From: Fibrobacter succinogenes
GTDB lineage: Bacteria; Fibrobacterota; Fibrobacteria; Fibrobacterales; Fibrobacteraceae
Length of the DNA stretch: 64,000 nucleotides
Direction of reading: 5' to 3'
NCBI GenBank assembly: GCA_902756345.1
Contig: CACVQR010000013.1
Coordinates: forward strand, 1-64,000
Shown: piece after piece, positions 53,450-57,387 of the stretch
Layout of the letters: each line of letters starts with the position of its first letter
Position numbering within the stretch: position 1 is the first letter of the stretch
The notes under the pieces: model-generated
Told to the model about the DNA's origin: nothing
Database searches by the model: none
What the model saw: only the letters and a program-made list of their open reading frames with translations
Made by a program: the position numbers and the translations under genes

Positions 53450-55375
53450 CTACTTGATTCGCACCTGACGCAAGTTTTTACCCTGTCGGACAAGGTAAGT
53501 TCCCGGAGCCTGCTTTAAAGAATGCCCCAAGAATCGGCCCTGCATATCAAAGACCTGGATAGATTCGCCCGCATTCAACGGCTGTAGCATTCCGACAATG
53601 CCGCGCTGACCAATGGCTGTCGTGGAATCTTCATCTATCGAATCCTGTTTGGTGGTATCCGGTTCCACGAAGGGGTGGTCCGGATCGTCTACGATGACCT
53701 TGAACGTCACGGAGCCTTCGCAGCCCGAGGCGTTCGTGTGGACCGCCTTGTAGTAGCCGCTCATGGTGCCGTCCATGTTCTTGAAGCGGATTTCACGACT
53801 TGTCGACTTGAATTCCGCCGGACCACTCCACACCCAGCGACCGCCTTCCCACGGGTGCGGGCCAATCGAAAGCGAATCGCCCTTGTTCAGCTTCACGTCG
53901 GTCGTCTCGTTCCAGCCGCCATCGTGGATTTTTACATACGGTATTATGGTATCCGGCTTGCATGCGCCACCTTCGGCGCCTTCGATCACCATCGTGGTAA
54001 TCGTGTTGGACTTCGCGGTCATCGAAAGCGCCTTGCCCGAAATCACGATATCGGATTGCTTGGTGAGGCTGCCGGGCAGTTCGAACCGCACCACCTTCGC
54101 GCTCGTGCCAATCTTCACGAATTCACCCAGGTCGAAGCTGTACTTCACGTCGCTAGAACCGCTATTGCGCACGATAAGCACCAGCGCTCCCTCGGGCGTG
54201 AGTGCCGCGAGCGTGTTGCCGTTGTCGCTATCGATAATGCGCGAACCCGGACGGATGTAGCGGCTGAATGCGGCATGCATGTAGTAACGCGCATTCGGGC
54301 TGAAAGTCTGCTTGCTGTGGTTCAGCGCGAGGCTACGCCAGTTCTCAGCCGGGTCGCCAATCTGCCAGTCCACCCAGGCGCTCGCCTTCATGTCGCGCAG
54401 GTCAGCCAAAATCACGCCCGCCATCCAGAGCGCAATGTTCTCGTCGCCGCTCTTGTGAAGCGGGCCCGTTTCGGACTGCCACACCTTCTTGTCTTTCGCG
54501 AACGCCGCGTTGAAAAGCTTCGCGCGGGAATCACCGCCGGAATAGCTGTGCGTGTTCACCTGGAACATGTAAGAAAGCGCTTCGGAACTGTACTTGTTGA
54601 ACTGGTTCAGGGCATCGCCAATGTTCGTCTCGTCGGCGGCACTCACCGAAGTCTCCGGGAACAGGCCCTTCTTCTGGAGCGCCTTGCCGAGTTCCACAAT
54701 CATCTTCGTCTGGTTGTTCTTGAACCCGCAACCTTCCTGTCCACCGTTCGCCTTCCACCAGCCGGCACTCGGTTCGTTGAACGGTTCCACCGTGCGGAAC
54801 GTAATTCCCCATTCCTTCTTGAAATGCAGCGCCACTTCGGAGAGGTAGTCCGCGAAGTCGTCGAAATAGTCTTCCTTGAGGTTGTCGCTGCCGTCGCTAG
54901 AGCCCGAAACGCAGCCACTCTTGGTCATCCACCACGGGGGCGAATTGCTGAACGCCTCGAAAATCGGGCTCTTCACGCGCTTGGAAAGTTCAATCGCAAT
55001 CGTACGCTGGTAAGGGTCTGCCGTCCAGTCAAAATCGCCCTTTTCCGTGGGCTTGTAGCCGGGAACGTTCGCGCCGCCGTCGCCCTTCGTTAGGTGATTA
55101 TGGCCTGGCTGGTCGCCGCCGCCAATATTGTAGCGGAAAATCGTATAGCCCAAGCCCGTATCGGGGTCGGCAATCGCACCCAGAAGCTTGCTGCGGTTCG
55201 CCTCGCTCCAGGCACCCGCCTTCACGGCCCACCAGCAGAGGCTCGTGCCCCAGCCCTCGAAAACCTGATACTTTTTGCCGGGGTCGACAACGACCTTAGT
55301 TTGTGCCATGGCGCCATTTGCAAGGAATGCAACTGCAGCGCTAGAAATAGTAAAAAACCGAACCAATCCTTTCAT
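53450..55375 (-). CDS. Secreted GH30 glycosidase (endo-beta-1,6-galactanase-like)
   Basis: A 641-aa exported enzyme (signal ends GAMAQ). The GH30 TIM barrel plus side beta domain spans residues about 25-470: FEGWGTSLCWWA, FRYNIGGGDQPGHNH, SNSPPWWM, proton donor in EPFNEPSAGWW (Glu201) and nucleophile in VWQSETGP (Glu302). The FNEPSAGWW sequence is like fungal and bacterial endo-beta-1,6-galactanases, so arabinogalactan side chains are a likely substrate. Residues about 480-575 form an Ig-like module and the tail is sorting-type (VFDMQGRFLGHS, GTYLVRQG). Both catalytic Glu are intact. Confidence 0.9.
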   Translation of the reverse strand: MKGLVRFFTISSAAVAFLANGAMAQTKVVVDPGKKYQVFEGWGTSLCWWAVKAGAWSEANRSKLLGAIADPDTGLGYTIFRYNIGGGDQPGHNHLTKGDGGANVPGYKPTEKGDFDWTADPYQRTIAIELSKRVKSPIFEAFSNSPPWWMTKSGCVSGSSDGSDNLKEDYFDDFADYLSEVALHFKKEWGITFRTVEPFNEPSAGWWKANGGQEGCGFKNNQTKMIVELGKALQKKGLFPETSVSAADETNIGDALNQFNKYSSEALSYMFQVNTHSYSGGDSRAKLFNAAFAKDKKVWQSETGPLHKSGDENIALWMAGVILADLRDMKASAWVDWQIGDPAENWRSLALNHSKQTFSPNARYYMHAAFSRYIRPGSRIIDSDNGNTLAALTPEGALVLIVRNSGSSDVKYSFDLGEFVKIGTSAKVVRFELPGSLTKQSDIVISGKALSMTAKSNTITTMVIEGAEGGACKPDTIIPYVKIHDGGWNETTDVKLNKGDSLSIGPHPWEGGRWVWSGPAEFKSTSREIRFKNMDGTMSGYYKAVHTNASGCEGSVTFKVIVDDPDHPFVEPDTTKQDSIDEDSTTAIGQRGIVGMLQPLNAGESIQVFDMQGRFLGHSLKQAPGTYLVRQGKNLRQVRIK

Positions 55376-55539
55376 GGTTCTAAATATATCCTAAAACAAG
55401 GCGAATGTCAAATGTGGACTTTTTCGGATTGTTTTTTCTTTTTTTCAAACGTCACAGGAAAATGCATGTTACTTGCAATACCTAGGCGATTTATATATAT
55501 TAAAAGAATCCTAACCATCACCTTTTAACGGAGTTCAAA

Positions 55540-56283
55540 ATGCTCTACAAACACTGGAAAAAATTAGCTCTCGCTGTGACCAGTTTTTTCTGGGCTAGCT
55601 GCGACAACACCTCGTCTGCCAACGATGAAAACTCGCCAGAATCCAGTTCGTCGATCGAAACTCCGAAATCCAGTTCTGCTAAGGCCGCCCCTGAATCAAG
55701 CGCAACAGCAGGCAATGCATCCAGTTCTTCTGCCGCGCAGCCTAACTCCAGTGCCACGGCGGCCAATCCGGAATCCAGTTCCGAAACCGAGGCAATCTCC
55801 AGTTCTTCTGAAGCCATTGACCCGAATGTCGCAGAAAGCTCTAGCAGCCTAGAACAGCAGATTGTCCCCTTGTATGGCGTTACAGATACAATCATCCCGG
55901 TCATCACTCCCAAATATGGCGTTGTCGTAAGAAGCTCCAGCAGCGAAGTAATTGCGCCTAAGTATGGCGTCATGAATCCCATTTGCCAAAAATACGGATC
56001 GGACCTCTATTGTGAAGACGGCGTCACCTGCAAAGAAGAAACAAAGGATTCGACACAGGTTCCTGAATGTACCGGCGACCAGCTTTGCGCCAAGTACGGA
56101 GTCGTAGTCGTCAAGGAAACCGTTTACAAGTGCGACGACGGAACGGTTTATAATGAAGCCGAATTCAAGGCCAAATACGACATCTTGGACGGCGCCGTAG
56201 ACTTGTACGGTTGCCCGAGCGACATTTGCGAATCACAGCCGCTGTACGGCGTTTCAAGCAAAATTACACACCCTAATAACTAA
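55540..56283 (+). CDS. Radical-SAM-associated lipoprotein with seven Tyr-Gly motifs
   Basis: A 247-aa lipoprotein with signal and lipobox FWASC (Cys21), ribosome site GGAG, and a Ser/Ala-rich linker (residues about 24-105). The C-terminal part repeats a (L/K)-Y-G-(V/S/C) motif seven times, with Tyr at 112, 126, 142, 152, 186, 223 and 236 (PLYGV, PKYGV, PKYGV, QKYGS, AKYGV, DLYGC, PLYGV), mixed with nine Cys. Three nt after its stop begins a SPASM radical-SAM gene. The pair fits the known 'rSAM/lipoprotein system', in which the lipoprotein is the supposed target of the maturase. The Tyr-Gly or Cys sites may be modified; that is inference. Confidence 0.82.
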   Translation: MLYKHWKKLALAVTSFFWASCDNTSSANDENSPESSSSIETPKSSSAKAAPESSATAGNASSSSAAQPNSSATAANPESSSETEAISSSSEAIDPNVAESSSSLEQQIVPLYGVTDTIIPVITPKYGVVVRSSSSEVIAPKYGVMNPICQKYGSDLYCEDGVTCKEETKDSTQVPECTGDQLCAKYGVVVVKETVYKCDDGTVYNEAEFKAKYDILDGAVDLYGCPSDICESQPLYGVSSKITHPNN

Positions 56284-56286
56284 AAA

Positions 56287-57363
56287 ATGCAGCTCGGCCT
56301 CAAGAAAAAGCTTGCGCTCGAAGCGTTCCGCCTTTATCGCCATAACGAAATCAAGGCGCACCCGCTGACGTATTTTTTCTGGGAGTGCACGTTGCGCTGC
56401 AATTTGCATTGTCAGCACTGCGGCAGCGACTGCGTTGCCGACGCCATTCCCGACATGCCCCGCGAAGATTTTTTGCGGGTACTCGACAGCCTTGCCCCAC
56501 ATGTCGATCCCCAAAATTTTACCGTTGTCATTACCGGCGGCGAACCGCTCATGCGCGGCGACCTCGAAGAATGCGCTCAAGAAATCAAGAAACGCGGCTA
56601 CGCCTGGGGCATGGTGACAAACGGACTTGCGCTCACTCCCGAACGCTTTACCAAACTCATGAACGCAGGCCTACGTTCGCTCACCATCAGTCTTGACGGT
56701 CTTGAAGCGAACCACAATCTTTTCCGCGGCAACGCCCACAGTTTTGAACGCGCCGTGCGAGCGATCCACATGGCCGCAAGCGTGAAGGAACTCACCTTCG
56801 ACGTGATGACCTGCGTGAACAAGAAGAACCTAAGCGAACTTCCGCAGATTCACAATATGCTCGTGAACCTGGGCGTCAAGCGCTGGCGAGTTTCGAACGT
56901 ATTCCCCAAAGGCCGCGCCAAAGACAATCCGCTATTCATGCTCACGAACGACGAATTCCGTCAAACTTTTGAATTCATTCGCGAGGCAAAAAAGCAGGGC
57001 CAGATAAACGTGAATTACGACTGCGAAGGTTTCCTCGGCAGCTATGAGAAGGTCGTTCGCGACCATCCGTTCTTCTGCTGGGCCGGCGTGAACATTGCCT
57101 CGGTCCTTTGCGACGGTAGCATTTCGGCTTGTCCGAGCCTGCGCGGCGACTACATTCAAGGCAACATCTACAAAGACGACTTGTGGGATGTGTGGCAGAA
57201 CCGTTACCAGGTGATGCGTGACCGCAGCTGGGCACGCATCGGTGAATGTAAGGATTGCAAATACTGGCGCTACTGCGAAGGTTCCAGTTTGCATTTACGC
57301 GACGAGCACACCAAGGAACTCGCTTACTGCCATGTTAAAAGGCTGGAGGCGGCGGGCGTGTAG
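56287..57363 (+). CDS. Radical SAM/SPASM maturase of the rSAM/lipoprotein system
   Basis: A 358-aa radical SAM enzyme. The cluster motif is C38-x3-C42-x2-C45 inside WECTLRCNLHCQHCGSDC, followed by the SAM-binding TGGEPLMRGDLEE. Further strands (GMVTNGLALT, LTISLDGLEANH) complete the barrel. The C-terminal SPASM region has several Cys (FFCWAG, VLCDG, SACPS, GECKDCKYWRYCEG, YCHVK) for auxiliary iron-sulfur clusters, as in peptide and protein maturases. It starts 3 nt after the lipoprotein gene without a clear ribosome site, so translation is coupled. It probably modifies that lipoprotein before export. The next gene converges. Confidence 0.9.
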   Translation: MQLGLKKKLALEAFRLYRHNEIKAHPLTYFFWECTLRCNLHCQHCGSDCVADAIPDMPREDFLRVLDSLAPHVDPQNFTVVITGGEPLMRGDLEECAQEIKKRGYAWGMVTNGLALTPERFTKLMNAGLRSLTISLDGLEANHNLFRGNAHSFERAVRAIHMAASVKELTFDVMTCVNKKNLSELPQIHNMLVNLGVKRWRVSNVFPKGRAKDNPLFMLTNDEFRQTFEFIREAKKQGQINVNYDCEGFLGSYEKVVRDHPFFCWAGVNIASVLCDGSISACPSLRGDYIQGNIYKDDLWDVWQNRYQVMRDRSWARIGECKDCKYWRYCEGSSLHLRDEHTKELAYCHVKRLEAAGV

Positions 57364-57387
57364 TCTGCGCGTTTTTCCGCGCCCAAA

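Follow-up and report, generated by a model that had tools for sequence, protein, structure and literature searches.

What does a radical SAM enzyme do to the surface lipoprotein that is encoded directly upstream of it and carries seven X-Tyr-Gly tripeptides (xYG)? The question is raised by a gene pair near the end of a 64,000-nucleotide stretch of Fibrobacter succinogenes DNA, here called the window, to which all coordinates of the pair refer (plus strand unless stated). The answer was sought by comparing both genes with their relatives in Fibrobacter, in its order and in other phyla.

The lipoprotein and enzyme genes

The lipoprotein gene (55540–56283, 247 aa) is followed after exactly 3 nt by the enzyme gene (56287–57363, 358 aa). 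A consensus scan gives a sigma-70-like promoter match (TTGCAA-17-TATATT, 55473–55501), by itself no proof of function, and a GGAG ribosome-binding site (55530–55533) lies 6 nt 5' of the ATG. A terminator-like stem with a T-run is found at the end of the enzyme gene (57352–57370), the count of such structures in the region not exceeding that in shuffled sequence. Because the neighbouring long ORFs on both sides are oriented the opposite way, the lipoprotein and enzyme genes look like a two-gene unit. The ORF at 53450–55375 on the minus strand encodes a secreted glycoside-hydrolase-like protein, presumably resembling GH30, and is transcribed away from the pair; a strong TTGACA/TATATT match (55411–55383) belongs to this ORF. 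The window's genome belongs to the same genus as records named Fibrobacter, in agreement with the cellulose-degrader context given in a preliminary description of the locus.

That description had also recognized a radical SAM/lipoprotein pair, and the enzyme bears this out. It is a full TIGR04133 member, matching the profile over its full length with 599.3 bits (curated cut-off 425), and both Pfam PF04055 (radical SAM) and PF13186 (SPASM) score above cut-off. TIGR04133 is the family named rSAM_w_lipo (NCBIfam 'TIGR04133 family radical SAM/SPASM protein') and TIGR04134 that named lipo_with_rSAM ('radical SAM-associated putative lipoprotein'). The proposed membership of the lipoprotein in TIGR04134 found no support: the profile (curated cut-off 39.8) has zero matches in the window lipoprotein and the rest of its genome. 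The model itself works, because partners from Proteiniphilum, Paludibacter and Treponema pass it. No NCBIfam or Pfam family is matched by the window lipoprotein at cut-off.

Features of the enzyme

An AlphaFold model of the enzyme (pLDDT 86, pTM 0.88) has the SPASM peptide-maturase fold, and its closest solved folds are SuiB, CteB, anSME, SkfB and ChlB, with Z about 24–26. SuiB makes a Lys-Trp crosslink, CteB a thioether, and anSME oxidizes Ser or Cys. Since the model matches many SPASM enzymes equally, the solved folds do not discriminate chemistry, and assignment from them was dropped. Assignment by HMM score alone was dropped as well, the top other families lying within a few bits (about eleven). 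The second-best NCBIfam match is TIGR04103, which we take to be the family of PlpX and IPR026482, at 139.9 bits, far below its cut-off of 725, followed by TIGR04053 (136 bits), NirJ2 (131 bits) and AhbD (129 bits); a Fibrobacter paralogue of the enzyme ranks TIGR04053 above TIGR04103. A tree with TIGR04053, TIGR04347, NirJ, MftC and PqqE as comparison families joins TIGR04133 with PlpX and the GDL-motif enzymes, with modest support (90/83) and long branches.

The radical SAM cysteines C38/C42/C45 and the SPASM cysteines C264, C282, C321, C324, C330 and C348 are invariant in 18 TIGR04133 sequences from several phyla, as are four extra cysteines, C34, C49, C176 and C246. The last Cys of the usual SPASM motif CX2CX5CX3C, as read from these sequences, is missing. 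Given this missing Cys and the four other invariant Cys, the ligand site of an auxiliary cluster in TIGR04133 enzymes may be unusual or open.

X-Tyr-Gly sites in the partner proteins

The lipoprotein starts with a signal peptide, MLYKHWKKLALAVTSFFWAS-C (55540–55602), whose lipobox FFWASC ends in the lipid-anchor Cys21; alignment and genome searches find it common to the Fibrobacter partner lipoproteins, and we propose it as the recognition element for the enzyme. A Ser-rich linker follows (55603–55860), and after it come seven motifs in the order LYGV, KYGV, KYGV, KYGS, KYGV, LYGC and LYGV. Sites 1 and 2 are L-Y-G in IVPLYGVTD (55870–55878) and K-Y-G in ITPKYGVVV (55912–55920), sites 3 to 5 are K-Y-G in IAPKYGVMNP (55960–55968), ICQKYGSDL (55990–55998) and LCAKYGVVV (56092–56100), and sites 6 and 7 are L-Y-G in AVDLYGCPSD (56203–56211) and SQPLYGVSS (56242–56250). 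These seven YG dipeptides compare with 0.58 expected from composition, in keeping with the earlier suggestion of several sites on one lipoprotein, and 200,000 shuffles of the mature part never reached six. On a motif model built from the linked partners, the flanks are strong at six of the seven sites; they are weak at site 4 (QKYGSD), the least certain. Close orthologues carry 5–8 sites, many of them within a repeat S-S-x-I-A-A/P-K-Y-G-V.

For 60 of the 65 distinct enzymes in Fibrobacter and its order, an xYG lipoprotein is encoded upstream at a distance of at most 1.3 kb and usually no more than 60 nt. Among the other five, two have an upstream xYG lipoprotein (L011, L057), one a downstream one (L046), and two are at contig ends; every TIGR04133 gene with enough contig in this group is adjoined by an xYG lipoprotein. 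The 25 representative Fibrobacter partners contain 61 YG against 13.2 expected, and only SS ranks higher. For other phyla the survey covered loci from Bacteroidota, Spirochaetota and Neomarinimicrobiota and a few other records, and an upstream exported protein with xYG is present at 52 of 54. The first site there usually reads E/M/A/K/L-Y-G-V/T/S-P; 67 of 82 partners have Pro as the second residue after Gly, and the first YG mostly lies 0–13 residues past the lipid-anchored Cys. Some of these partners are tiny lipoproteins of 60–85 aa containing little but two or three YG sites. Because the mature parts differ between partners of TIGR04133 enzymes, YG stands out as their shared feature.

Orthologues lacking YG and separation of the pair were both looked for among the relatives, and neither was found. 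Tyr-Gly had been named at the outset as the likely target, and its recurrence in Fibrobacter, its order and the other phyla supports that choice; we are confident, if short of certain, that X-Tyr-Gly is the site of action.

In more distant Fibrobacterota, xYG is retained by some partners that are secreted but have no lipobox. Those at L072, L074-L077 and L079-L081 have a C-terminal tail resembling a T9SS sorting domain, which in the one tested partner matched Pfam Por_Secre_tail just below cut-off. Fibrobacter also has a distant paralogue of the enzyme (L083:4099-4884, L084, L085), whose score of about 270 bits lies below the TIGR04133 cut-off, and 1 nt downstream of it is the gene for a zinc-ribbon protein with a conserved IYGPP and no signal peptide; this protein may be a cytosolic target for the same chemistry.

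The signal peptide as a predictor of further sites

Aligned signal peptides of the Fibrobacter partners have the form YKHWKK(I)xLxLTAxFWASC, or in short KHWKK...FFWxxC. A model of these 24 positions alone, at E below 0.002 in the window's genome, picked out seven proteins: three beside a second TIGR04133 gene, the window lipoprotein, and three unlinked to an enzyme gene, each of which has an xYG (PLYGVVQ, FLYGPMA and ALYGVPP). Genus-wide, nearly every Fibrobacter genome with the enzyme yields two to twenty matches; in one (G032) the enzyme is present and a match is absent. Outside the order there are almost none, with one exception (G063).

The motif model had been trained on linked partners, and the unlinked proteins were picked by signal peptide, with its HW partly serving as a selection criterion and some weak matches (short or differently oriented loci) omitted. 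A strong xYG site is present in 25 of 26 such unlinked proteins, which form eight families and of which 19 are homologous to linked partners, versus 3 of 41 ORFs of the window, a small control and the only source of the background YG statistics (Fisher p 5e-14).

One 99%-complete Fibrobacter genome (G009; L206, L222) has no TIGR04133 gene over cut-off and encodes FLWxGC lipoproteins with a related signal peptide and with xYG (ALYGSS; CLYGAG and VLYGAP). Loss of the enzyme, an assembly gap or the use of another enzyme are alternative accounts of this state.

Chemistry at the sites

X-Y-G is the motif of the spliceases, for which several sites per precursor are possible and whose prototype acts on MYG and LYG (PMC10533398, PMC10373908, PMC11002830). 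The Nif11 precursor that goes with a TIGR04103 enzyme of Nostoc (853 bits) ends in IALYGLPPELF. When scored with the Fibrobacter motif model, its IALYGLPP site and two published PlpA-type tags surpass 57 of 58 background YG sites, and as sequence the tail of the precursor is practically the Fibrobacter motif. Since the tag matches the target of enzymes that excise a tyrosine fragment from the backbone, the window lipoprotein may be a multi-site backbone-edited surface protein. The best explanation, to which we assign a probability of about 0.55, is a splicease recruited by the signal peptide and editing several surface lipoproteins, each at several sites. Tyramine excision as such we consider somewhat better than an even bet, well below our confidence in the site, because the enzyme-level signals in its favour, TIGR04103 as the second-best family and the grouping in the tree, are each weak.

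The strongest competitor, possible though rather unlikely, is that the enzyme acts at X-Tyr-Gly by other chemistry and the tyramine is kept, with a crosslink at Tyr or X, epimerisation or C-H oxidation as the outcome. The SPASM fold is common to many chemistries, the nearest solved structures being SuiB, CteB, anSME and ChlB, and PlpX is barely separated by HMM score from families with other chemistries. Against it, the Nostoc substrate shares its flanks with the Fibrobacter sites, and no conserved second residue that might be a crosslink partner was noticed at a fixed distance from YG. Moreover, among the families that we recall, we know of none other than the spliceases with an XYG tripeptide as radical SAM target.

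It is improbable that YG instead marks surface lipoproteins for binding or export, with the enzyme either just recognising it or modifying something else. The short distance between the anchored Cys and the first YG in other phyla is as for a sorting signal, and G009 keeps its xYG lipoproteins with no TIGR04133 enzyme detected; however, many Fibrobacter sites are far from the lipobox, with up to eight per protein, and YG is also kept in another Fibrobacterota family, whose partners are no lipoproteins, and in the zinc-ribbon partners of the distant paralogue.

The preliminary description had named nearby Cys as another possible target, and the enzyme could then crosslink cysteines within the lipoprotein. 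Thioethers are the product of many SPASM enzymes, and the window lipoprotein has eight Cys besides that of the lipobox, several of them near YG. As a general rule, however, this fails: Cys was rejected as the target because most partners from other phyla (52 of 82) have no Cys past the lipobox, and a partner from the same class as Fibrobacter (L078) has five YG and zero other Cys. We regard thioether chemistry as highly improbable. Finally, the YG runs could be read as low-complexity sequence left by repeat expansion beside an incidental enzyme gene, since some of the sites are in a repetitive Ser-rich stretch and close orthologues differ in their number (5 to 8). This idea is effectively refuted by the shuffles (composition cannot yield seven YG), the pairing survey (the pair is conserved) and the loci of other phyla (dissimilar proteins have the motif in common).

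Proposed mechanism and function

The splicease reading starts from what comparison between genomes shows: the gene pairing, the sites and the signal peptide common to the partners. The TIGR04133 enzyme would be recruited in the cytoplasm by the signal peptide KHWKK...FFWxxC, which we infer to be its leader, and would then act on the unfolded lipoprotein at the X-Tyr-Gly sites. The protein would next be exported, lipidated at Cys21 and displayed on its Ser-rich stalk, bearing up to seven electrophilic ketoamides. The likeliest use of these would be reversible protease inhibition at the cell surface, with X setting the specificity.

Protease inhibition has been attributed to the beta-residues of spliceotides (PMC10373908, citing Scott et al. 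2022). On the Fibrobacter lipoproteins, beta-residues would sit on a Ser-rich stalk at the surface, with Lys or Leu determining the specificity, and the simplest use would be as a defence against rumen or gut proteases; covalent attachment to partners via the ketone is an alternative.

A wider reading, offered tentatively and at slightly under even odds, is that backbone splicing in Fibrobacter extends to an entire set of surface lipoproteins, which a dedicated lipoprotein signal peptide would bring to the enzyme. Beta-amino-acid ketoamides would in that case be numerous on the cell surface, and TIGR04133 would be an export-coupled splicease class acting on surface proteins in several phyla. 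The set would consist of the approximately two to twenty signal-peptide matches per enzyme-bearing genome, with one to eight sites each.

If true, a family pair that NCBI names only by number would gain a chemistry, and 'radical SAM-associated putative lipoprotein' would become a testable class of backbone-edited surface proteins in Fibrobacterota, Bacteroidota, Spirochaetota and others. Protein labelling could profit from an export-coupled system that has several sites, a short tag and a signal peptide as leader, and gut and rumen bacteria would possibly wear a protease-inhibiting coat.

The enzyme/lipoprotein pairing, as numbered NCBI families, and splicing as a chemistry are already known, and a Fibrobacter RNA-seq study names radical SAM genes without linking them to lipoproteins (PMC5442110). 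No paper on TIGR04133, TIGR04134 or the NCBI product name was found in the literature consulted. Apparently new are the connection of TIGR04133 with X-Y-G, the Fibrobacter substrates with several sites and the signal peptide they share, and the substrates encoded away from an enzyme gene; the 2022 study of Scott et al. may already cover the family.

Comparison with known systems

Compared with the TIGR04133/TIGR04134 pair, the window locus has the same full TIGR04133 enzyme, a lipoprotein immediately upstream and xYG in the partner. It differs in having seven sites far from the anchor, where TIGR04134 partners mostly have one or two beside it, and in its Ser-rich stalk and different signal peptide.

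With the PlpX/PlpY spliceases (PlpX being in IPR026482; PMC11002830) it shares a SPASM radical SAM enzyme, X-Y-G in the partner, the possibility of several sites per substrate and similar flanks (PMC10533398, PMC10373908). In contrast, its enzyme does not approach the TIGR04103 cut-off and has a different SPASM Cys pattern, and its predicted substrate, an exported lipoprotein, has a signal peptide in place of a Nif11 or nitrile-hydratase leader. No small conserved PlpY-like ORF was noticed beside the pair when the ORFs of the window and its relatives were read, PlpY itself being small.

The TIGR03913 GDL-motif (DUF1843) system also has a SPASM enzyme, grouped with PlpX in the tree, and several small partner peptides with xYG or xYA/xYM near the N-terminus, but these peptides are short and lack a signal peptide, the enzyme is longer and the motif is not always YG. 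On Azospirillum and Aureibacter plasmids (L187:37-737, L186:1156-1869), DUF1843 peptides encoded next to related radical SAM enzymes frequently have xYG or xYA/xYM at their start, which suggests the same kind of site.

The solved SPASM/twitch enzymes SuiB, CteB, anSME, SkfB and ChlB resemble the window enzyme in overall fold and differ in substrates and chemistries. CteB, SkfB and SuiB carry an N-terminal RRE domain (PMC8326336), for which the window enzyme has no room, its N-terminus being one 20-residue helix in the AlphaFold model.
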